This document shows, piece by piece, positions 3,036-12,559 of a DNA stretch of 64,000 nt. The notes beneath the pieces were generated by a model. It was given only the letters and a program-made list of their open reading frames with translations. It did no database searches and had not been told where the DNA came from. Position 1 is the first letter of the stretch. Each line of letters begins with the position of its first letter. The translations under genes and the position numbers were made by a program. Location: positions 992,001 through 1,056,000 of the forward strand of contig NZ_CP132294.1 of NCBI RefSeq assembly GCF_030734285.1. Direction: 5' to 3'. Origin of the DNA: Natronococcus sp. AD-5 (GTDB lineage Archaea; Halobacteriota; Halobacteria; Halobacteriales; Natrialbaceae).

Positions 3036-3380
3036 AGTTGATTCTCGTGGCCGTTTCCCACCCGCCGACGATCGAACGGATCGATCGGTCGGGAAACGGG
3101 TTCCACGTCCGGAGCAATTCCGGAATGTGGTATTGTTATGGCCGATTTACCATCGAGTAAAGACTGTCTTCCGGAGACGAATGTAATAAAACATTGAATT
3201 TCGGACGCCGGCACATCAGATTGATTCCGATCGGGCGAGACGGTCGATCTCTCGCGTCGAACTGTACATCGACGGTTTTCGAGGGAATCTCGCGCGGGAA
3301 AGCCGGGCGGAAACGACGTGCTTTCGAGTTGTCGTTCCCGGAGTAAGTCCTATACACGGTGATTGCATACCTGCTCGTAC
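3036..3380. promoter_or_regulatory. Divergent intergenic region, cetZ / solute-binding protein
   Basis: This 345-base divergent spacer contains no convincing gene. At 3180-3195 there is a short inverted repeat, AATGT-AATAAA-ACATT, inside an AT-rich patch. On the plus side AAGTCCTATA (3345-3354) lies about 27-30 bases before the ATG at 3381, which fits a TATA box and a leaderless transcript for the binding-protein gene. The cetZ promoter is less clear; CCATAACAATACC read on the minus strand (about 3128-3140) is a candidate and would give a leader of roughly 70 bases. Confidence 0.4.
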
Positions 3381-5126
3381 ATGGACGACGTGGGTGCGTT
3401 GACGACGCGTCGGAGGGCGCTCGCAGGGGCGGCTACCGGGTTCGGTAGCGCGCTCGCCGGGTGTACGGAGTACCTCTGGTCGCGGGCCGAAAATCCCGGT
3501 CCGGAGCAGGTTTCTCTGACTATCAAGGCGGCGCCCGCGGAGGACGACCTCGTTGCCACGACGATCGCGAGCAAACTCCGGGAGAACTTTCGGACGGCCG
3601 GGATCGACGCGTCGTTCGAACCGATCGCCAGAGCGGAGCTGTACCGGGAGGTCCTCCTCGACGGCGAGTACGACGTCTTCGTCACCAGATACCCCGGTCT
3701 CGACGAGTACGACGGTCTTCGCGGGCTGCTCCACTCGCGGTACGTCAGCGAACGAGGCTGGCAAAACCCGCTTCACTTCTCCGACGTGACCGCCGACGAT
3801 CTCCTCGAGTCACAGCTCACGACCGACGGTGACGAGCGCGAACAGGCGCTCTCCGACCTGTTCGATCACCTCTCGGAAACGGTGCCGTACACGACCGTCG
3901 CGTTCCCTCACCGGATCGGCGCCGCGCGGAACGAACTCGCCGTCTCCACACCGCCGCGAGAGGCGCTCGACTACGTCGATATCGCGTCCCGCGAACACGA
4001 CGGAGGACCGCGGGAGCGGCCGCTCGAGGTCGGCGTCTTCGGCGAGCAACTCACCGAACGACCGAATCCGATCGTCGTCGATCGAAACAGCATCCCGGGG
4101 CTGTTGGACCTGGTGTACTCGCCGCTGGTTCGTCGGATCGACGACGAGGACGTGCCGTGGCTCGCCGACGACGTCGAGTGGGAGTCGGGCGGTCGGCTCG
4201 GTGCGACGGTCACGCTGCGCGAGAACGCGACCTGGCACGACGGGTCGTCACTCGACGCCGACGACGTCGCCTTCACGTACCGGTTCCTCGGGGATACGTC
4301 GCTTGACGAGGCCGAAAGCGCCATCCCCGCACCGCGATACCGGAGTCAGCAAAGCATCGTCGAGGACGTCGCTGCGGTCGACGACCGAACGGTCGAGTTC
4401 TCCTTTCGAACCGTCGACCGATCCATCGCGATCCGGGCGCTTCGAATCCCGCTGTTGCCGGCGCACGTCTGGGAGCCCCGCTCGACGATCGTCGGCGAGC
4501 GCCGGACCGAGGCGCTCGTCAACGATAACGAGGAACCGATCGGCTCGGGCCTGTTCGCGGTCGGTGACGTCACGGGCGACACCGAGATCGAACTCGAACT
4601 CTTCGACGATCACATCTTCCGCGACGGGGCGACGGATCGGCCCTCAATCCTCGAGGACTTTCCTCAGTTCGAGGGGATCAGATTCCAGATCGCGCCGAAC
4701 GCAGGTTCGATCGTCGACCTCCTCGTCGATGGGGAGATCGATATCACCGGGAGTCCGCTTCCCGTGGACGAACTCAACGCGATCCGGGAGAACGCGGCTC
4801 TCTCCGCGCTCACCGAACCGACGGACGAGTTCTACATGATCGGTTACAACGGCCACCACCAGGTGCTCGGGAACCCCAACGTCCGACGGATACTCTCCCG
4901 GCTGATCGACCGCGAACACGCCGTCGACGAACTGTTCGGCGGCTTCGCGGAGCCGGCACGGACGCGGAACTCGCTTTTCGGGATTGCAGACACAGACCTC
5001 GAGGACACGGAGGCGTCGGTTCTCACGAACTTTCCGGGGTCGGACGGCGAGGTCGACCCGAGCCAGGCACGAGCCCTCTTCGAAGAGGAGGGGTACGGGT
5101 ACGAGGACGGCGCCTTGCTCGAGTAG
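3381..5126 (+). CDS. Orphan ABC-type oligopeptide/nickel family solute-binding lipoprotein with permuted domain order
   Basis: Extracellular substrate-binding protein of the SBP_bac_5 (DppA/OppA/NikA) family, 581 residues. The N terminus has a twin-arginine motif (TTRRRALAG) and a lipobox, Leu25-Ala-Gly-Cys28, so it should be a Tat-exported, lipid-anchored protein. Residues about 214-581 read like the usual N-terminal two thirds of the family (YSPLVRR, PWLADDVEW, TVTLRENATWHDGSSLDADDV, PIGSGLF, NVRRILSRLIDREHAV). The protein then stops at LFEEEGYGYEDGALLE. Residues about 45-188 (TAGIDASFEPIARAELYREV, GEYDVFVTRYPG, then a VPYTTVAFPHR ending) read like the part that normally follows that point. 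The domain order therefore looks circularly permuted. No permease or ATPase genes adjoin it. The start at 3381 fits a leaderless promoter; an upstream TTG at 3363 is less likely. Confidence 0.85.
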   Translation: MDDVGALTTRRRALAGAATGFGSALAGCTEYLWSRAENPGPEQVSLTIKAAPAEDDLVATTIASKLRENFRTAGIDASFEPIARAELYREVLLDGEYDVFVTRYPGLDEYDGLRGLLHSRYVSERGWQNPLHFSDVTADDLLESQLTTDGDEREQALSDLFDHLSETVPYTTVAFPHRIGAARNELAVSTPPREALDYVDIASREHDGGPRERPLEVGVFGEQLTERPNPIVVDRNSIPGLLDLVYSPLVRRIDDEDVPWLADDVEWESGGRLGATVTLRENATWHDGSSLDADDVAFTYRFLGDTSLDEAESAIPAPRYRSQQSIVEDVAAVDDRTVEFSFRTVDRSIAIRALRIPLLPAHVWEPRSTIVGERRTEALVNDNEEPIGSGLFAVGDVTGDTEIELELFDDHIFRDGATDRPSILEDFPQFEGIRFQIAPNAGSIVDLLVDGEIDITGSPLPVDELNAIRENAALSALTEPTDEFYMIGYNGHHQVLGNPNVRRILSRLIDREHAVDELFGGFAEPARTRNSLFGIADTDLEDTEASVLTNFPGSDGEVDPSQARALFEEEGYGYEDGALLE

Positions 5127-5244
5127 TGGGTGATTACCGCGCCCGATCGAGGCCGGTATCGGCGACGATCCGCGTCTCCGCGATCGCGACACAGTGGTAA
5201 GCCAACCGGACCGTATTAATGTCCTCCAGGCAGTACGTACGATT

Positions 5245-6120
5245 ATGGCGCTGCTCGACGTCGTCCTCACGCTCGCGTTCGTCGTGACGGCGATGCTCGT
5301 CACGGCGACGCTCGTGCTCGTCGGGCCGCAGCGGCTCGCGGCCGCACTCCGCGGGTACCGGTGGCGACTCGAGGCGTGTCTGCTCTCGATCGCCGCGCTC
5401 GCGGTCGTGTTGGCCCTCCGGTGGTCGACGCGGGACGTGGTCCGGCGGCTCGAGCGGCGCGTGATCGGCCACAATATTACGAACGATCTCTTCGCGCTGG
5501 AACGACAGCTCTTCGGCGAGACGCCCGTCGCGATCCTCCAGTCGGTCCAGTTCGAGGCGCTCACCTCGTTCTTCGTCTTCGCCTACATCTACGGCTACGC
5601 GTTCTTGCTCCTGTTCCCGATCGTCGCCTACTTCGCGCTCGAGGAGATGGACGAACTGTCGACGCTGCTGCTCGCGTTCACCGCCAACTACGGGATCGGA
5701 CTGCTCTGTTACGTTCTCTTTATCGCCTACGGGCCCCGCAACTTCGATCCGATGCTGTTCGAGGGGCTGCTCTACGATGCGTTTCCGCAGTCTAACTTCC
5801 TCACCGGCCAGGTGAACCAGAGCACGAACGTGTTCCCGTCGCTGCACACGTCGCTGTCGATGACGGTGTTCTTCGTCGCCTGGCTGACCCGCGATCGGTA
5901 CCCGCTGTGGGTCCCGCTGTCGGGTTTTCTCGCGATCAACGTCGCGCTCTCGACGATGTACCTCGGCATCCACTGGTTCTCCGACGTCGTCGCGGGGACG
6001 CTGCTCGCGCTCGTCAGCGTCTACATCGGCGTCAACTACACCGTCGACGAGATCGTCGCGGCGAGCCGCCAGTACCTCGGTCGTCGGTTCGACGGACTCG
6101 GAAAGCCGGGAAGCGAGTGA
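5245..6120 (+). CDS. PAP2-family membrane phosphatase
   Basis: Integral membrane protein of 291 residues with about six hydrophobic segments. It belongs to the type 2 phosphatidic acid phosphatase superfamily, which dephosphorylates lipid phosphates or polyprenyl pyrophosphates at the membrane surface. The second PAP2 motif is visible as FPSLHTSLSMTV, and the third as STMYLGIHWFSDVVAG with the catalytic histidine. The first motif is degenerate. The ATG at 5245 is preceded by a GTATTAAT box at about 5213-5220, giving leaderless spacing, so upstream in-frame starts are discounted. Substrate unknown; recycling of isoprenoid carrier phosphates is a plausible role in haloarchaea. Confidence 0.85.
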   Translation: MALLDVVLTLAFVVTAMLVTATLVLVGPQRLAAALRGYRWRLEACLLSIAALAVVLALRWSTRDVVRRLERRVIGHNITNDLFALERQLFGETPVAILQSVQFEALTSFFVFAYIYGYAFLLLFPIVAYFALEEMDELSTLLLAFTANYGIGLLCYVLFIAYGPRNFDPMLFEGLLYDAFPQSNFLTGQVNQSTNVFPSLHTSLSMTVFFVAWLTRDRYPLWVPLSGFLAINVALSTMYLGIHWFSDVVAGTLLALVSVYIGVNYTVDEIVAASRQYLGRRFDGLGKPGSE

Positions 6121-7867: not shown

Positions 7868-9055
7868 CTAGTCTTCGGCTTCGGTCGGGGTCGTGCCCGG
7901 TTCGGATTCCGAGAGGTCCGCGATGCCGTGAACGAGCGCCTCCCCGCTCGCCGTATCGAAGAGGTGAATCTTCGACCGATCGAGAACCACGTCGACCGTT
8001 TCTCCTTCTCGGATGTCGGCGTCGGGGGTGACGCTCATCAGGAGCTGATCCTGCGACTCCATGGGATCTTCCTCCATCGTCCGCTCTGCGCCCTCGTCGA
8101 GCATGAGGTAGACGAAGATCTCGTCGCCCATCGGCTCGAGCACGTCGGTCGTCACCTCGATGCGCTGGGTCGGCTGCGTGATCGAATCGGCCCTCTTCGC
8201 GAGGTGGACGTCCTCCGGGCGAACGCCGAGCGTGACGGCGTCGCCGTCGCCCACGCCGGGAACCGCCGCGTGGTCGAATTCGACGGCGAAGTTCTTCGTC
8301 TCGAGGCCGCCCGCGACGAGCTCCCCCTGGACGAAGTTCATCGACGGCGAGCCGATGAAGCCCGCGACGAACAGGTTGGCGGGCTCGTTGTAGCAGACCA
8401 GCGGCGGATCGATCTGCTGGAGCTCGCCGGCGTCGAGGACCGCGATCCGGTCGGACATCGTCATCGCCTCGGCCTGGTCGTGCGTGACGTAGACGATCGT
8501 CGTCCCGAGTTCGCGGTGGAGTCGCTGGAGTTCGGTCCGCATGTGGACGCGCAGCTTCGCGTCCAAGTTCGCCAGCGGCTCGTCCATCAGGAAGACGTCT
8601 GGATTGCGGACGATCGCGCGGGCGATCGCGACGCGCTGGCGCTGGCCGCCGGACATCTCGTCGGGCATCCGGTCTAGCATCCCCTCGAGCTGGACGATGT
8701 CGGCCGCCTGCTCGACGCGCCGTTCGATCTCGTCGTCGTCGTACTTGCGAAGCCGGAGCCCGAACGAGATGTTGTCGAAGACGTCCATGTGCGGGAACAG
8801 CGCGATGTTCTGGAAGACCATCGCGACGCCGCGGTCCTTGGGGGCGAGGTTCGTGACGTCGTCGTCGCCGATGTAGACGCTGCCCTCTGACGGCTGGGTC
8901 AGTCCGGCGATGGTTTCCATCGTCGTCGACTTGCCACACCCCGAGGGCCCGACGAGGCAGACGAACTCCCCGTCTTCGATGTTCAGGTTCATGTCGTCGA
9001 CCGCGACGACGTCTTCGTAGCGCTTCGTGACGTGTTCGAGTTGTACTCGTGCCAT
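7868..9055 (-). CDS. Sugar ABC importer ATP-binding protein, MalK/UgpC type
   Basis: Cytoplasmic ATPase of 395 residues driving the importer encoded just upstream. It has Walker A GPSGCGKSTT, the ABC signature MSGGQRQRVAIARA, Walker B VFLMDEPLANLDAKL and the H-loop in TIVYVTHDQAEAM. The C-terminal third (from about residue 240) is an OB-fold/TOBE regulatory domain, as in MalK and UgpC, including the TLGVRPEDVHL motif. The GCGKSTTMETIAGL sequence and the PKDRGVAMVFQNIALFPH Q-loop are typical of carbohydrate transporters. The gene follows the second permease gene by 6 bases, so it is co-transcribed and probably translationally coupled. Confidence 0.95.
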   Translation of the reverse strand: MARVQLEHVTKRYEDVVAVDDMNLNIEDGEFVCLVGPSGCGKSTTMETIAGLTQPSEGSVYIGDDDVTNLAPKDRGVAMVFQNIALFPHMDVFDNISFGLRLRKYDDDEIERRVEQAADIVQLEGMLDRMPDEMSGGQRQRVAIARAIVRNPDVFLMDEPLANLDAKLRVHMRTELQRLHRELGTTIVYVTHDQAEAMTMSDRIAVLDAGELQQIDPPLVCYNEPANLFVAGFIGSPSMNFVQGELVAGGLETKNFAVEFDHAAVPGVGDGDAVTLGVRPEDVHLAKRADSITQPTQRIEVTTDVLEPMGDEIFVYLMLDEGAERTMEEDPMESQDQLLMSVTPDADIREGETVDVVLDRSKIHLFDTASGEALVHGIADLSESEPGTTPTEAED

Positions 9056-9061
9056 AGTATC

Positions 9062-10090
9062 TTACTCCTTGAGTGCTCCTGCGGTGAGTCCGCTGACGAT
9101 TTTCTCCTGGGCCACGATCACGAGGATCGCGACCGGAAGGACGCCGATGATGCTCGAGGCGGCCATCAGGTTGAACAGGATCTCGTACTGCCCCTGGTAG
9201 CCGAGGATCCCCTCGAGCAGCGGCGCCCAGTTCTGCGGCTGGCCGTCGGTCATCAGGAACGAGAAGAAGAACTCGTTGTAGACCGCGATGAACGTCAGCA
9301 CGCCGGCGGTTGCAACGCCGGGCGCCGACAGCGGAATGATGACCCGGAACAGCGCGCCCAGGCGGGTCGTCCCCTCGACCCGAGCGGCGTCCTCTAAGCC
9401 GTCGGGAATCTGTGCGTAGAACGTCGTGAGGATGAAGATCGAGAGCGGCATGAAGATCGCCGAGATCGGGATCACCATCGCGCCAGGCGTGTTATAGAGG
9501 GTCCCGTTGCTCAGGATGGGTTCTAGCGCCGCGACCGGGGTATTGAACAGGTCGTTCAACGGAATGAAAAACGCCGCCGGCGGGAAGAACGACACGACCA
9601 GCACGAGCAGCATCAGCGGCGTCTTCGCGGGGAACTCGAGCCGGCCGAAGGCGTAGCCCGCGAGGCTGGCGACGACCAGCACGAGGATCGTGGAGGTCGT
9701 CGCGATGACGAAGCTGTTGAACATGTACCAGTGGAACGGCAGCACTTCGAACACCTCGAAGAAGGCGCCGGGATTGAAGCCGTTCGGCGTGAAGATGATG
9801 TCCTGTAACTGGCCTTCGGGGGTCAGCGCGACCATCAGCAGCCAGTAGAACGGGAACAGCGTCGTGAACAGGAAGAATATCGCCGCGACGTAGAACATCG
9901 CTTTGTAGACGCGCTCGGGGTTCTGAATGGAGCTCTCGACCCATCTCGAGAACGGCCCGCGCTTGAGTTCGGCGTCTCCGGACCCCCCGAGCGCCGTACC
10001 TCCGTCGGCGATTCGGGTGGGCGGCCGACCGCCCTCGGCTTCGAAGTCGGTGCGTCCGTCCCGTGTCGTATCGTGATCGTTGGATTTCAT
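9062..10090 (-). CDS. Carbohydrate ABC transporter permease, MalG-like
   Basis: Inner permease subunit of 342 residues with about six membrane helices after a 75-residue charged, glycine-rich N-terminal extension. The EAA loop that contacts the ATPase is visible as QIPDGLEDAARVEGTTRLGALFRVIIPLSAPG. The protein ends with the MalG-type KIVSGLTAGALKE tail. The start ATG at 10090 shares one base with the TGA of the upstream permease gene (TGATG), indicating translational coupling. The long hydrophilic N terminus is unusual for MalG but could be a haloarchaeal acidic extension. Confidence 0.93.
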   Translation of the reverse strand: MKSNDHDTTRDGRTDFEAEGGRPPTRIADGGTALGGSGDAELKRGPFSRWVESSIQNPERVYKAMFYVAAIFFLFTTLFPFYWLLMVALTPEGQLQDIIFTPNGFNPGAFFEVFEVLPFHWYMFNSFVIATTSTILVLVVASLAGYAFGRLEFPAKTPLMLLVLVVSFFPPAAFFIPLNDLFNTPVAALEPILSNGTLYNTPGAMVIPISAIFMPLSIFILTTFYAQIPDGLEDAARVEGTTRLGALFRVIIPLSAPGVATAGVLTFIAVYNEFFFSFLMTDGQPQNWAPLLEGILGYQGQYEILFNLMAASSIIGVLPVAILVIVAQEKIVSGLTAGALKE

Positions 10091-11118
10091 CAGTAGAAAC
10101 CAGCCTCCGTGTCGCGGAAGAGGACGATGTACACCGTGATGAACAGGCCGATGACCAGCGCCGTCATGAAGGCCACTGCGGCCGCCGTCCCGAAGATACG
10201 CGTCCCGCCGAACATCGCCTCGACGACCATGCACGTCAGCGACGGGACGGTCGTACAGCCGACGCTCGACTCGATTAACCCGTACACGCGCATCGCGTCC
10301 ATCGTGCGGAACAGCATCGCGACGAGCAGCGCCGGCAGGATGAGCGGCAGCGTGATCATCCTGAACCGCTGCCAGGGCGAAGCGCCGGACACCCGAGCCA
10401 CGTCGTAGAGGCTCCGGTCGACGCTCTGGAGCCCGGCGAGGATCAACAGCGCCATGAACGCCGTCGACTTCCAGATGTCGGCGACGAGGACGATGACGAA
10501 CGCGTCCTGACTGTCGGCCAGCGGGTTCGGGCCGAAGAGCCCGAGCCACTGCCCCAGGTCCGTCCCGAAGCCGACCTCCGGCTGGAACATCAGGAAGAAG
10601 ATCATCCCCTGGATGACGATCGGGACGGCCCAGGGAAGGATGATCGCGACTCGTACCCAGCGTCGGCCGCGGAACTCCTGGTCGAGGATGAGCGCCTGAC
10701 CGAAGCCGAACAGCGTCTCGAAGAAGACGCTGATGATGGCGAACCCGAGCGTGACGAACAGCGCCTGCTGTAGAAACGGCACGCCGAAATCGACGAACGG
10801 GAACGACGACGTCAGCGTCACGTCCATGAACTGCTGTGCCAACCTGACGTCGCCCGTGAGCACGTCGACGTAGTTTTCGACGCCGACGAAGCCGCCCAGC
10901 GCTTCGTTGCCCCGCGTCTCGTCTTCTCGAAGCGACATCACGAACGTCATGATGAGCGGGTAGAACGCGATGAACGCGAGCAACAGGAACGACGGAATCA
11001 ACAGGAGGTAGGCGTAGGCCGCTTCGCTCAAGTTCTCCATCCAGTTGACGACCGCGTTGCCGGTCCGGTCTCGCTCGGGGGTTTCTCCGCCGATCCCGGT
11101 GTCAGTATCAGTTGCCAT
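10090..11118 (-). CDS. Carbohydrate ABC transporter permease, MalF/UgpA-like
   Basis: Permease subunit of 342 residues with about six membrane helices beginning at AAYAYLLLIPSFLLLAFIAFYPL. The EAA-like loop is SLYDVARVSGASPWQRFRMITLPLILP. Between helices 1 and 2 there is a moderately long extracellular loop. I chose the ATG at 11118; a GTG nine bases upstream is also possible. Either start overlaps the end of the binding-protein gene (stop at 11108), consistent with tight coupling. Two cysteines in the VGCTTVPSLTCMV loop might form a disulfide outside the membrane; that is inference. Confidence 0.92.
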   Translation of the reverse strand: MATDTDTGIGGETPERDRTGNAVVNWMENLSEAAYAYLLLIPSFLLLAFIAFYPLIMTFVMSLREDETRGNEALGGFVGVENYVDVLTGDVRLAQQFMDVTLTSSFPFVDFGVPFLQQALFVTLGFAIISVFFETLFGFGQALILDQEFRGRRWVRVAIILPWAVPIVIQGMIFFLMFQPEVGFGTDLGQWLGLFGPNPLADSQDAFVIVLVADIWKSTAFMALLILAGLQSVDRSLYDVARVSGASPWQRFRMITLPLILPALLVAMLFRTMDAMRVYGLIESSVGCTTVPSLTCMVVEAMFGGTRIFGTAAAVAFMTALVIGLFITVYIVLFRDTEAGFY

Positions 11119-12559
11119 ATTCTTCACCTACGTCTTGTTCGCTCTGCTCGAGCCGTTCGCGCAGATCCCCCATCGCATCCTCGGGGGATTGCTCGCCGCG
11201 GTAGGTCCCGTTTACCTCCTGGTAGATGTGTGCCGATTGCTCGGGCCAGACGTCGGTCACCGGCCGGGGGATCGCGTTTTCACCCGCGATCTGGATGGTT
11301 TCGGCGTAGTTCGCAACGGGACCGCTCTCCTCGGGATCGAGATCGTCGAGCAGTTCCAGAATCGGCGGCAACCAGCCCTGGATCTCGAAGATCGCGAGCA
11401 TGACCTCCTCGGTTGCAAACGCGTCCATCACCTGGATCGCCTTCTCCGCGTTCTCGGCCGCCGGGTTCAGCGTGAAGTGCCAGCCCCCGAGGGCGGACGC
11501 GGTGCCGCCGAGGCCGTCGTACTCGGCCTCGTCTGGGGTGACGCCGTACGGCATCGGCATCATGTCGACCTGATCGCCCATTCCTTCTTCGTGGGCGATC
11601 GCGATCGAGTACGGCCAGTTTCGGTGCATCACGGCGTTCCCGTCCGCGAAGGGGCCGCGAGCCTCCTCCTCGGTGTACTGGACGATCGCCGTCGGGCAGA
11701 TCTGCTCGTAGCCCTCGAGGGCGTACTCGTCTTCCTGACCGCGGATGAACGTACGCATCATTCGGATGGCGTCGATGACGGGCTCCTCGCCGACCGTGAC
11801 CTGGCGGTTTCCCGCCTCGAACAGGTTGTCGAGGCCGCCGAAGTACGCGCCGCCGAAGGTACTCATCACCTCGTTGAAGGTACAGCACGAGAGCCCCTCG
11901 TACGGGGCTGCTTGCGTGGTGAATCCGAACTCGGCGTCGGACTGATCTCGAACGTCGGCCGCGATCTCGGAAAACTCCTGCCAGGAAAGCGGCTCGGTGG
12001 CCCAGTTGCCGGTGTCGTACCCTGCCTCCTCGACGAGGTCCTTCCGATACTGCATCGTCCCGAAGTCGGGAAACAGCGGCAGCGCGTGAATCGCGTCCGT
12101 TTCCGGGTGACGGGCGGTTTCGACCGCCGCGTCGAGGTAGTCGTTTTCGATCATACTGACGGTGTCACTCGAGAGTCGATCCTCGAGGTTGACCGTCTGT
12201 TCGCGCAGGATAAACGGGATCGTCCACCCGCTGTCCATCATGAACAGGTCGGGCTCGGGACGTCCAGCCTGCAGCGCGGACTGCGCGGCGGCTCTGCGCT
12301 GCTCGGTTTCGTTCGGTCCCGTTCGAACCTCGATGGTGATGTCCTCGTCGAGGCCGGCGTCCCAGAGCGTCTGGTGTAACTCTCCCATGAGACTCTGAAA
12401 ATCGGCGTCGCCATAGACGATGACAGACCCTTCTTCGGCCCCCCGACCGAGACATCCCGCCAGACCGACCGAGCCGGCGCCAGTTACCGAGGCCGCAGCG
12501 ACGAACGCTCTCCGGGATACACCGACGCTGGTCTTCTGTGCTTTCCTATCTCGATCCAT
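11108..12559 (-). CDS. Sugar ABC transporter solute-binding lipoprotein
   Basis: Extracellular binding protein of 483 residues in the bacterial SBP family 1 (maltose/multiple sugar) fold. The N terminus has a Tat motif (VSRRAFVAAASV) and a lipobox LAGC, so it should be a Tat-secreted lipoprotein. Typical landmarks are the early DLFMMDSGWTIPF segment, the WATEPLSWQEFSEIAADV segment and the C-terminal GWHFTLNPAAENAEKAIQVMDAF region. It is the first gene of the ABC operon and lies 371 bases downstream of a TrmB regulator gene on the same strand. Sugar specificity cannot be read from sequence; acidic composition reflects the high-salt exterior. Confidence 0.92.
   Translation of the reverse strand: MDRDRKAQKTSVGVSRRAFVAAASVTGAGSVGLAGCLGRGAEEGSVIVYGDADFQSLMGELHQTLWDAGLDEDITIEVRTGPNETEQRRAAAQSALQAGRPEPDLFMMDSGWTIPFILREQTVNLEDRLSSDTVSMIENDYLDAAVETARHPETDAIHALPLFPDFGTMQYRKDLVEEAGYDTGNWATEPLSWQEFSEIAADVRDQSDAEFGFTTQAAPYEGLSCCTFNEVMSTFGGAYFGGLDNLFEAGNRQVTVGEEPVIDAIRMMRTFIRGQEDEYALEGYEQICPTAIVQYTEEEARGPFADGNAVMHRNWPYSIAIAHEEGMGDQVDMMPMPYGVTPDEAEYDGLGGTASALGGWHFTLNPAAENAEKAIQVMDAFATEEVMLAIFEIQGWLPPILELLDDLDPEESGPVANYAETIQIAGENAIPRPVTDVWPEQSAHIYQEVNGTYRGEQSPEDAMGDLRERLEQSEQDVGEEYGN

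Follow-up and report, generated by a model that had tools for sequence, protein, structure and literature searches.

A circularly permuted family-5 solute-binding lipoprotein paired with a PAP2 gene in haloarchaea

The window that we have analysed (64,000 nucleotides of the Natronococcus sp. AD-5 genome) encodes a solute-binding protein (SBP) that is, almost beyond doubt, a true circular permutation of the family-5 SBPs (SBP_bac_5, cluster C). The gene is paired with one for a membrane phosphatase/phosphotransferase of the PAP2_3 type (Table 1). Taken as a whole, the data lead us to favor, with some reserve, a reading in which the SBP is a permuted Tat lipoprotein that belongs to a conserved unit with PAP2 and would act outside the cytoplasm as an accessory to, or a receptor for, the PAP2 enzyme, and not as part of an importer.

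Table 1. Positions, in the window, of the SBP gene, the PAP2 gene and their parts
Feature	Position	Strand	Basis
Permuted family-5 solute-binding lipoprotein CDS	3381..5126	+	ORF, 581 aa, ATG at 3381; Pfam SBP_bac_5
Twin-arginine signal peptide and lipobox, Cys28	3381..3464	+	sequence TTRRRALAGAATGFGSALAGC
Transposed segment, residues 43-186, equivalent to the canonical C-terminal third of SBP_5	3507..3938	+	canonical HMM 365-506, i-E 1.1e-10
Linker from ancestral C-terminus to ancestral N-terminus, about residues 187-214	3939..4022	+	between the two HMM blocks
Canonical N-terminal two thirds, residues 226-574, with WHDG and LFEEEGYG, ending at the break	4056..5102	+	canonical HMM 58-363, i-E 1.1e-38
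PAP2_3 membrane phosphatase/phosphotransferase CDS	5194..6120	+	Pfam PAP2_3, E 2.7e-18
PAP2 motif FPSLHTS (S216, H218)	5833..5853	+	P215, S216, L217 and H218 invariant in 69 sequences
PAP2 motif HWFSD (H260, D264)	5971..5985	+	H260 and D264 invariant in 69 sequences

The Tat/lipobox start can be read in the SBP sequence itself (TTRRRALAG..ALAGC, C28), with R10, R11, G27 and C28 being invariant in 59 homologs; a Tat lipoprotein nature is common to this and other haloarchaeal SBPs. An alternative in-frame start, the TTG at 3363, would yield a product of 587 aa. The protein belongs to the Pfam family SBP_bac_5 (PF00496), which it matched with 149.3 bits against a cut-off of 32.4. The match covered residues 258-577, corresponding to profile positions 3-283 of 368, and this early stop fits the segment order that had been described in the initial annotation.

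We have built a canonical HMM of 527 positions from 29 canonical haloarchaeal family-5 SBPs. The SBP matched this HMM as two blocks in swapped order with one join, and the same arrangement was found in 71/71 homologs. The canonical order of segments is thus absent from the 581-residue chain, which represents a permuted variant. At the level of family profiles (hhalign), the N-segment aligned with canonical positions 350-514 (98.9%), reaching the last residue of the canonical chain, and the remaining SBP part aligned with positions 39-342. When the alignment columns were reset to the canonical order, as a block-swap control, a single match spanning 31-514 with a score of 478 was obtained, whereas in the native column order the best match scored 397 and the second 129. 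These matches go well past anything that chance would produce. The N-segment profile was also compared with solved chains, and 20 of its 21 matches were SBPs, hit at their C-terminal parts. In terms of the canonical fold, the chain now starts midway through the second lobe, at a point after the LLxEAGY helix and before the strand that follows it. Hence, the lipid anchor is attached to the second lobe and no longer to the ancestral N-terminus.

The same picture emerged from structure prediction. An AlphaFold model of the whole SBP, built with 59 homologs, had a pLDDT of 88.4 and a pTM of 0.85, with disorder confined to residues 1-35 and the first strand after the linker starting at residue 215. 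With a sequential aligner, residues 208-581 of this model superposed on AppA 17-355 (Z 22.4), leaving the rest unmatched. The N-segment (residues 38-206) modelled alone superposed on residues ~332-526 of solved SBPs: AppA 356-520 (Z 9.8), 6i3g 332-498 (Z 10.1) and DppA 337-503 (Z 9.3). The lone model was less certain (pLDDT 80, pTM 0.63), which is to be expected of an incomplete domain. The models therefore predict a complete family fold that is assembled from two complementary parts.

That an unrelated domain was inserted at residues 43-186, or that the gene is a chimera or an assembly artefact, seems to us hardly credible. In favor of such a reading, Pfam by itself does see the C-terminal match of the N-segment weakly (E 0.04), but the profile and structure searches recognised this segment as the absent C-terminal third. 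An assembly artefact or chimera was ruled out by the recurrence of the same order across many independent genomes, with homologs keeping it at 32-80% identity. The permutation of SBP_bac_5 proposed in the initial annotation is thus borne out by the HMM block swap, the profile alignment and the complementary model matches. Its assignment of residues about 45-188 to the last canonical segment agrees with the C-terminal parts of solved SBPs that were matched by both the profile and the lone model. No canonical C-terminal lobe follows residue 214, the protein ending at profile position ~363; the break at one natural join that the initial annotation described corresponds to the two HMM blocks, with the old termini bridged by a short linker. 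Similar haloarchaeal proteins, which it believed to exist, are represented by the 71 homologs above. Duplication followed by trimming, which it suggested as the origin of the permutation, is plausible; no duplication-then-trimming intermediate was seen. The adjacent PAP2 gene and the recurrence of permutation among ABC-linked SBPs go beyond what that annotation had noticed.

The PAP2_3 Pfam match of the partner protein reached 66.9 bits against a cut-off of 27. Residue R182 was invariant in the same 69 sequences as the motif residues S216, H218, H260 and D264, and on the basis of this conservation the enzyme is probably active. The ORF was called from a GTG, and the homology of most orthologs starts near residue 16-18 (Met18), so that the ATG at 5245 is likely the better candidate for the start. 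The protein has in common with PAP2_3/PgpB-like phosphatases (PF14378) the motifs PSLH and H-x3-D, both invariant in the partner family, and its nearest solved chain was 5jki, Bacillus subtilis YodM. It differs from them in giving only weak matches to named equivalogs, none of which came near the cut-off for either the SBP or the PAP2 protein, and in having an SBP-type partner gene.

The pairing of the two genes is widespread. SBP matches at E up to 1e-30 were present in 119 of the 125 genomes of the family, and full-length co-linear relatives in 190/292 genomes of the class, the carriers including Natronococcus pandeyae, N. amylolyticus, Haloferax gibbonsii (pHG2) and Natronorubrum bangense. 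In 69 of 72 loci, the PAP2 gene followed the SBP gene directly and in the same orientation, a 4-bp overlap being frequent. Across the 292 haloarchaeal genomes, both genes occurred in 190 and neither in 102, with no discordant genome, a raw count that ignores shared ancestry. A PAP2 motif was detected in the flanks of 37/40 PAP2-linked loci, compared with 0/36 canonical and 0/28 other permuted SBP loci. The PAP2-linked SBPs formed one clade (support 100/100 in trees of core columns), and their pairwise distances correlated with those of the PAP2 proteins (r 0.93, a value that was not attained in any of 2000 shuffles). Three loci of this clade (L057, L065 and L078) had no PAP2 gene within 2 kb; the corresponding genomes carry PAP2 elsewhere. 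Duplication involves whole pairs: two further SBP-PAP2 pairs are arranged in tandem in the AD-5 genome itself (L037), a tandem SBP-PAP2-SBP-PAP2 arrangement is also present in Natronorubrum bangense, and paralogous SBPs each retain their own PAP2 type. We consider it very likely that SBP and PAP2 make up a functional unit.

The SBP locus contained no transporter genes, which makes its product an orphan SBP and not an ABC-encoded one. This is consistent with the lack of an adjacent permease or ATPase that had been reported in the initial annotation. The window does hold, at 7868-12559, a complete sugar-type ABC operon. It lies on the minus strand, has its own binding protein and is apparently unrelated to the permuted SBP.

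As to what the SBP might do in the unit, analogy points to an accessory or receptor role beside the PAP2 enzyme, a mechanism that, considered alone, we rate at even chances. Exported by the Tat pathway and anchored to the membrane, the SBP would work outside it and no longer serve an ABC importer. It could bind a lipid head group, a phosphorylated compound or a peptide, and would either present this ligand to the PAP2 site, remove it from there or switch the site on. The active site of characterised PAP2 phosphatases faces outward, and we assume the same orientation here. In the PAP2-linked family, the alignment showed R[HY] where canonical SBPs have GW in the ligand region, making a changed ligand likely. 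The nearest relatives in the trees, in which some branches are poorly supported, were permuted SBPs that mostly adjoin permeases; the PAP2-linked family thus probably derived from an already permuted, ABC-linked SBP.

Two other explanations of the gene pair were weighed against this accessory or receptor role. The SBP could still serve an ABC importer whose permeases and ATPases are encoded elsewhere, with PAP2 acting separately, for instance by dephosphorylating a nutrient before uptake. The predicted SBP fold is complete and, even when permuted, compatible with transport, as other permuted SBPs of the same genome are found in complete ABC operons. However, it is PAP2 and not a permease that sits directly 3' of the SBP gene at nearly all loci, among the loci tested no other clade has the PAP2 link, and the GW of the canonical ligand region is lost, so that we regard a persisting importer function as unlikely. 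We give no greater weight to the proposal that the unit is real and that the SBP senses or carries the PAP2 product (e.g., the freed head group or a phosphate compound), without controlling the enzyme as a subunit. This proposal draws on the same linkage evidence as the accessory or receptor role, but no downstream uptake gene was present at the annotated loci inspected, and it appears improbable to a similar degree.

Permuted family-5 SBPs are not restricted to the PAP2-linked clade. Another SBP of the AD-5 genome (L044) showed the same permuted order within a complete ABC operon. Twenty further haloarchaeal loci were picked for a Pfam match that stops early; nearly all of them were permuted, mostly with adjoining permeases. 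The break points differ, lying after the LLxEAGY helix in most permuted SBPs. In two loci with an adjoining permease (L137 and L138), this helix is at the N-terminus and the break precedes it. Two others (L135 and L136) occupy the genomic place of L044/L053, with the same two upstream genes (83-96% identical), and the last block of their permuted SBPs is shorter at its end, by about one helix, than that of L044. A possible permutation in which nothing but the last helix and strand moved to the N-terminus was noted in L042 (G000:C1:222808-224013), with a weak match (i-E 0.002). The candidate L046 found no support as a further permutation, its N-terminal region giving no significant tail match.

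The initial annotation had called for a non-permuted sister, and this search succeeded in part. None was found for the PAP2-linked subfamily. For another permuted subfamily, the locus L139 (G046:C1:576000-582200) encodes an SBP in canonical order within the operon type of the permuted L044/L053 (G000:C1:235983-236864), L125 and L128, and its permeases share 72% and 61% identity with their L044 counterparts. L139 and L044 thus form a natural non-permuted/permuted pair, which captures the same operon before and after permutation.

Outside the haloarchaea, a permuted SBP was observed in a complete ABC operon of another archaeal lineage of the phylum (L145, G500:C2:100500-109000), with a hydrophobic C-terminal segment that resembles a membrane anchor. 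A bacterial example, in an ABC operon with hydantoinase/oxoprolinase genes on its flanks, was encoded on plasmid p2 of the alphaproteobacterium Ketogulonicigenium vulgare (L153, 71823-73499, WP_273692309); the permuted group extends beyond archaea. When permuted and canonical order were mapped on the core-column trees, six changes were counted, with four to five of them forced by supported branches. A single origin, with all permuted SBP_5 of the sample in one clade, was rejected by the AU test (p 6e-5). Together with the differing break points, these trees are read most simply as several independent permutations, with reversions being possible.

In its broadest form, our proposal is a two-gene system of pan-haloarchaeal extent, whose SBP would have changed from a transport receptor to an extracytoplasmic clamp on a lipid phosphatase/phosphotransferase, the move of the anchor to the second lobe altering the stance of the clamp over the membrane. 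It would be set against a background of repeated, independent permutation of family-5 SBPs in both archaea and bacteria, with the break inside the second lobe in the mapped cases and the ABC operon link kept. We put this forward tentatively, as a possibility that we do not expect to hold in all its parts. The SBP-PAP2 pair is in any case a very consistent gene unit, occurring in about two thirds of the sampled haloarchaeal genomes, and it would indicate that archaeal membrane-lipid or surface-glycan chemistry includes a step not yet known. The SBP is currently annotated as the binding protein of an ABC transporter, probably a mistaken assignment of its function. Permutation in family-5 SBPs is frequent, recurrent and conserved, and nature thus supplies a test case for the reasons and routes by which large two-lobed proteins permute. 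In the open-licence literature searched, we have found no description of a permuted family-5 SBP or of the haloarchaeal SBP-PAP2 pair.

Compared with AppA, DppA, NikA and OppA (family 5/cluster C, PF00496), the SBP has the fold and motifs in common over its full length once the blocks are restored. It differs from them in being permuted, in the absence of a neighbouring permease or ATPase, in its pairing with PAP2 and in the change of GW to R[HY]. For the natural permutation of a binding protein, we found one well-described precedent, of a different fold class: Tp0684/MglB-2 of Treponema pallidum and its relatives, termed a "Type Ic" permuted binding protein (PMC4990184). Like the SBP, it is an ABC-type binding protein in which a circular permutation arose naturally and is conserved, and it is tethered to the membrane; unlike the SBP, it has a Type I/cluster B glucose-galactose fold, carries N-lobe strands that moved to the C-terminus, and is linked to transport and chemotaxis (PMC4990184). 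The sequence and fold matches of the SBP are to family 5/cluster C, placing it outside Type Ic.

The closest parallels to the proposed role come from mycobacteria. The SBP-like lipoproteins LpqZ and FecB have no transporters and bind AftA and AftB, respectively, supporting envelope synthesis (PMC12802301), and LpqW, whose structure (2grv) matches the same fold family as the SBP, steers lipomannan synthesis (PMC3229680). For LpqZ and FecB a physical interaction with the enzyme was shown, whereas the SBP-PAP2 association is known here from gene linkage and co-occurrence. None of the three is described as permuted, and the enzyme partners are glycosyltransferases, compared with PAP2 for the SBP. 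LpqZ-AftA, FecB-AftB and LpqW nevertheless provide cases of a permease-less SBP fold that works with a membrane enzyme of envelope lipid or glycan synthesis, which is the type of role that we propose for the permuted haloarchaeal SBP.
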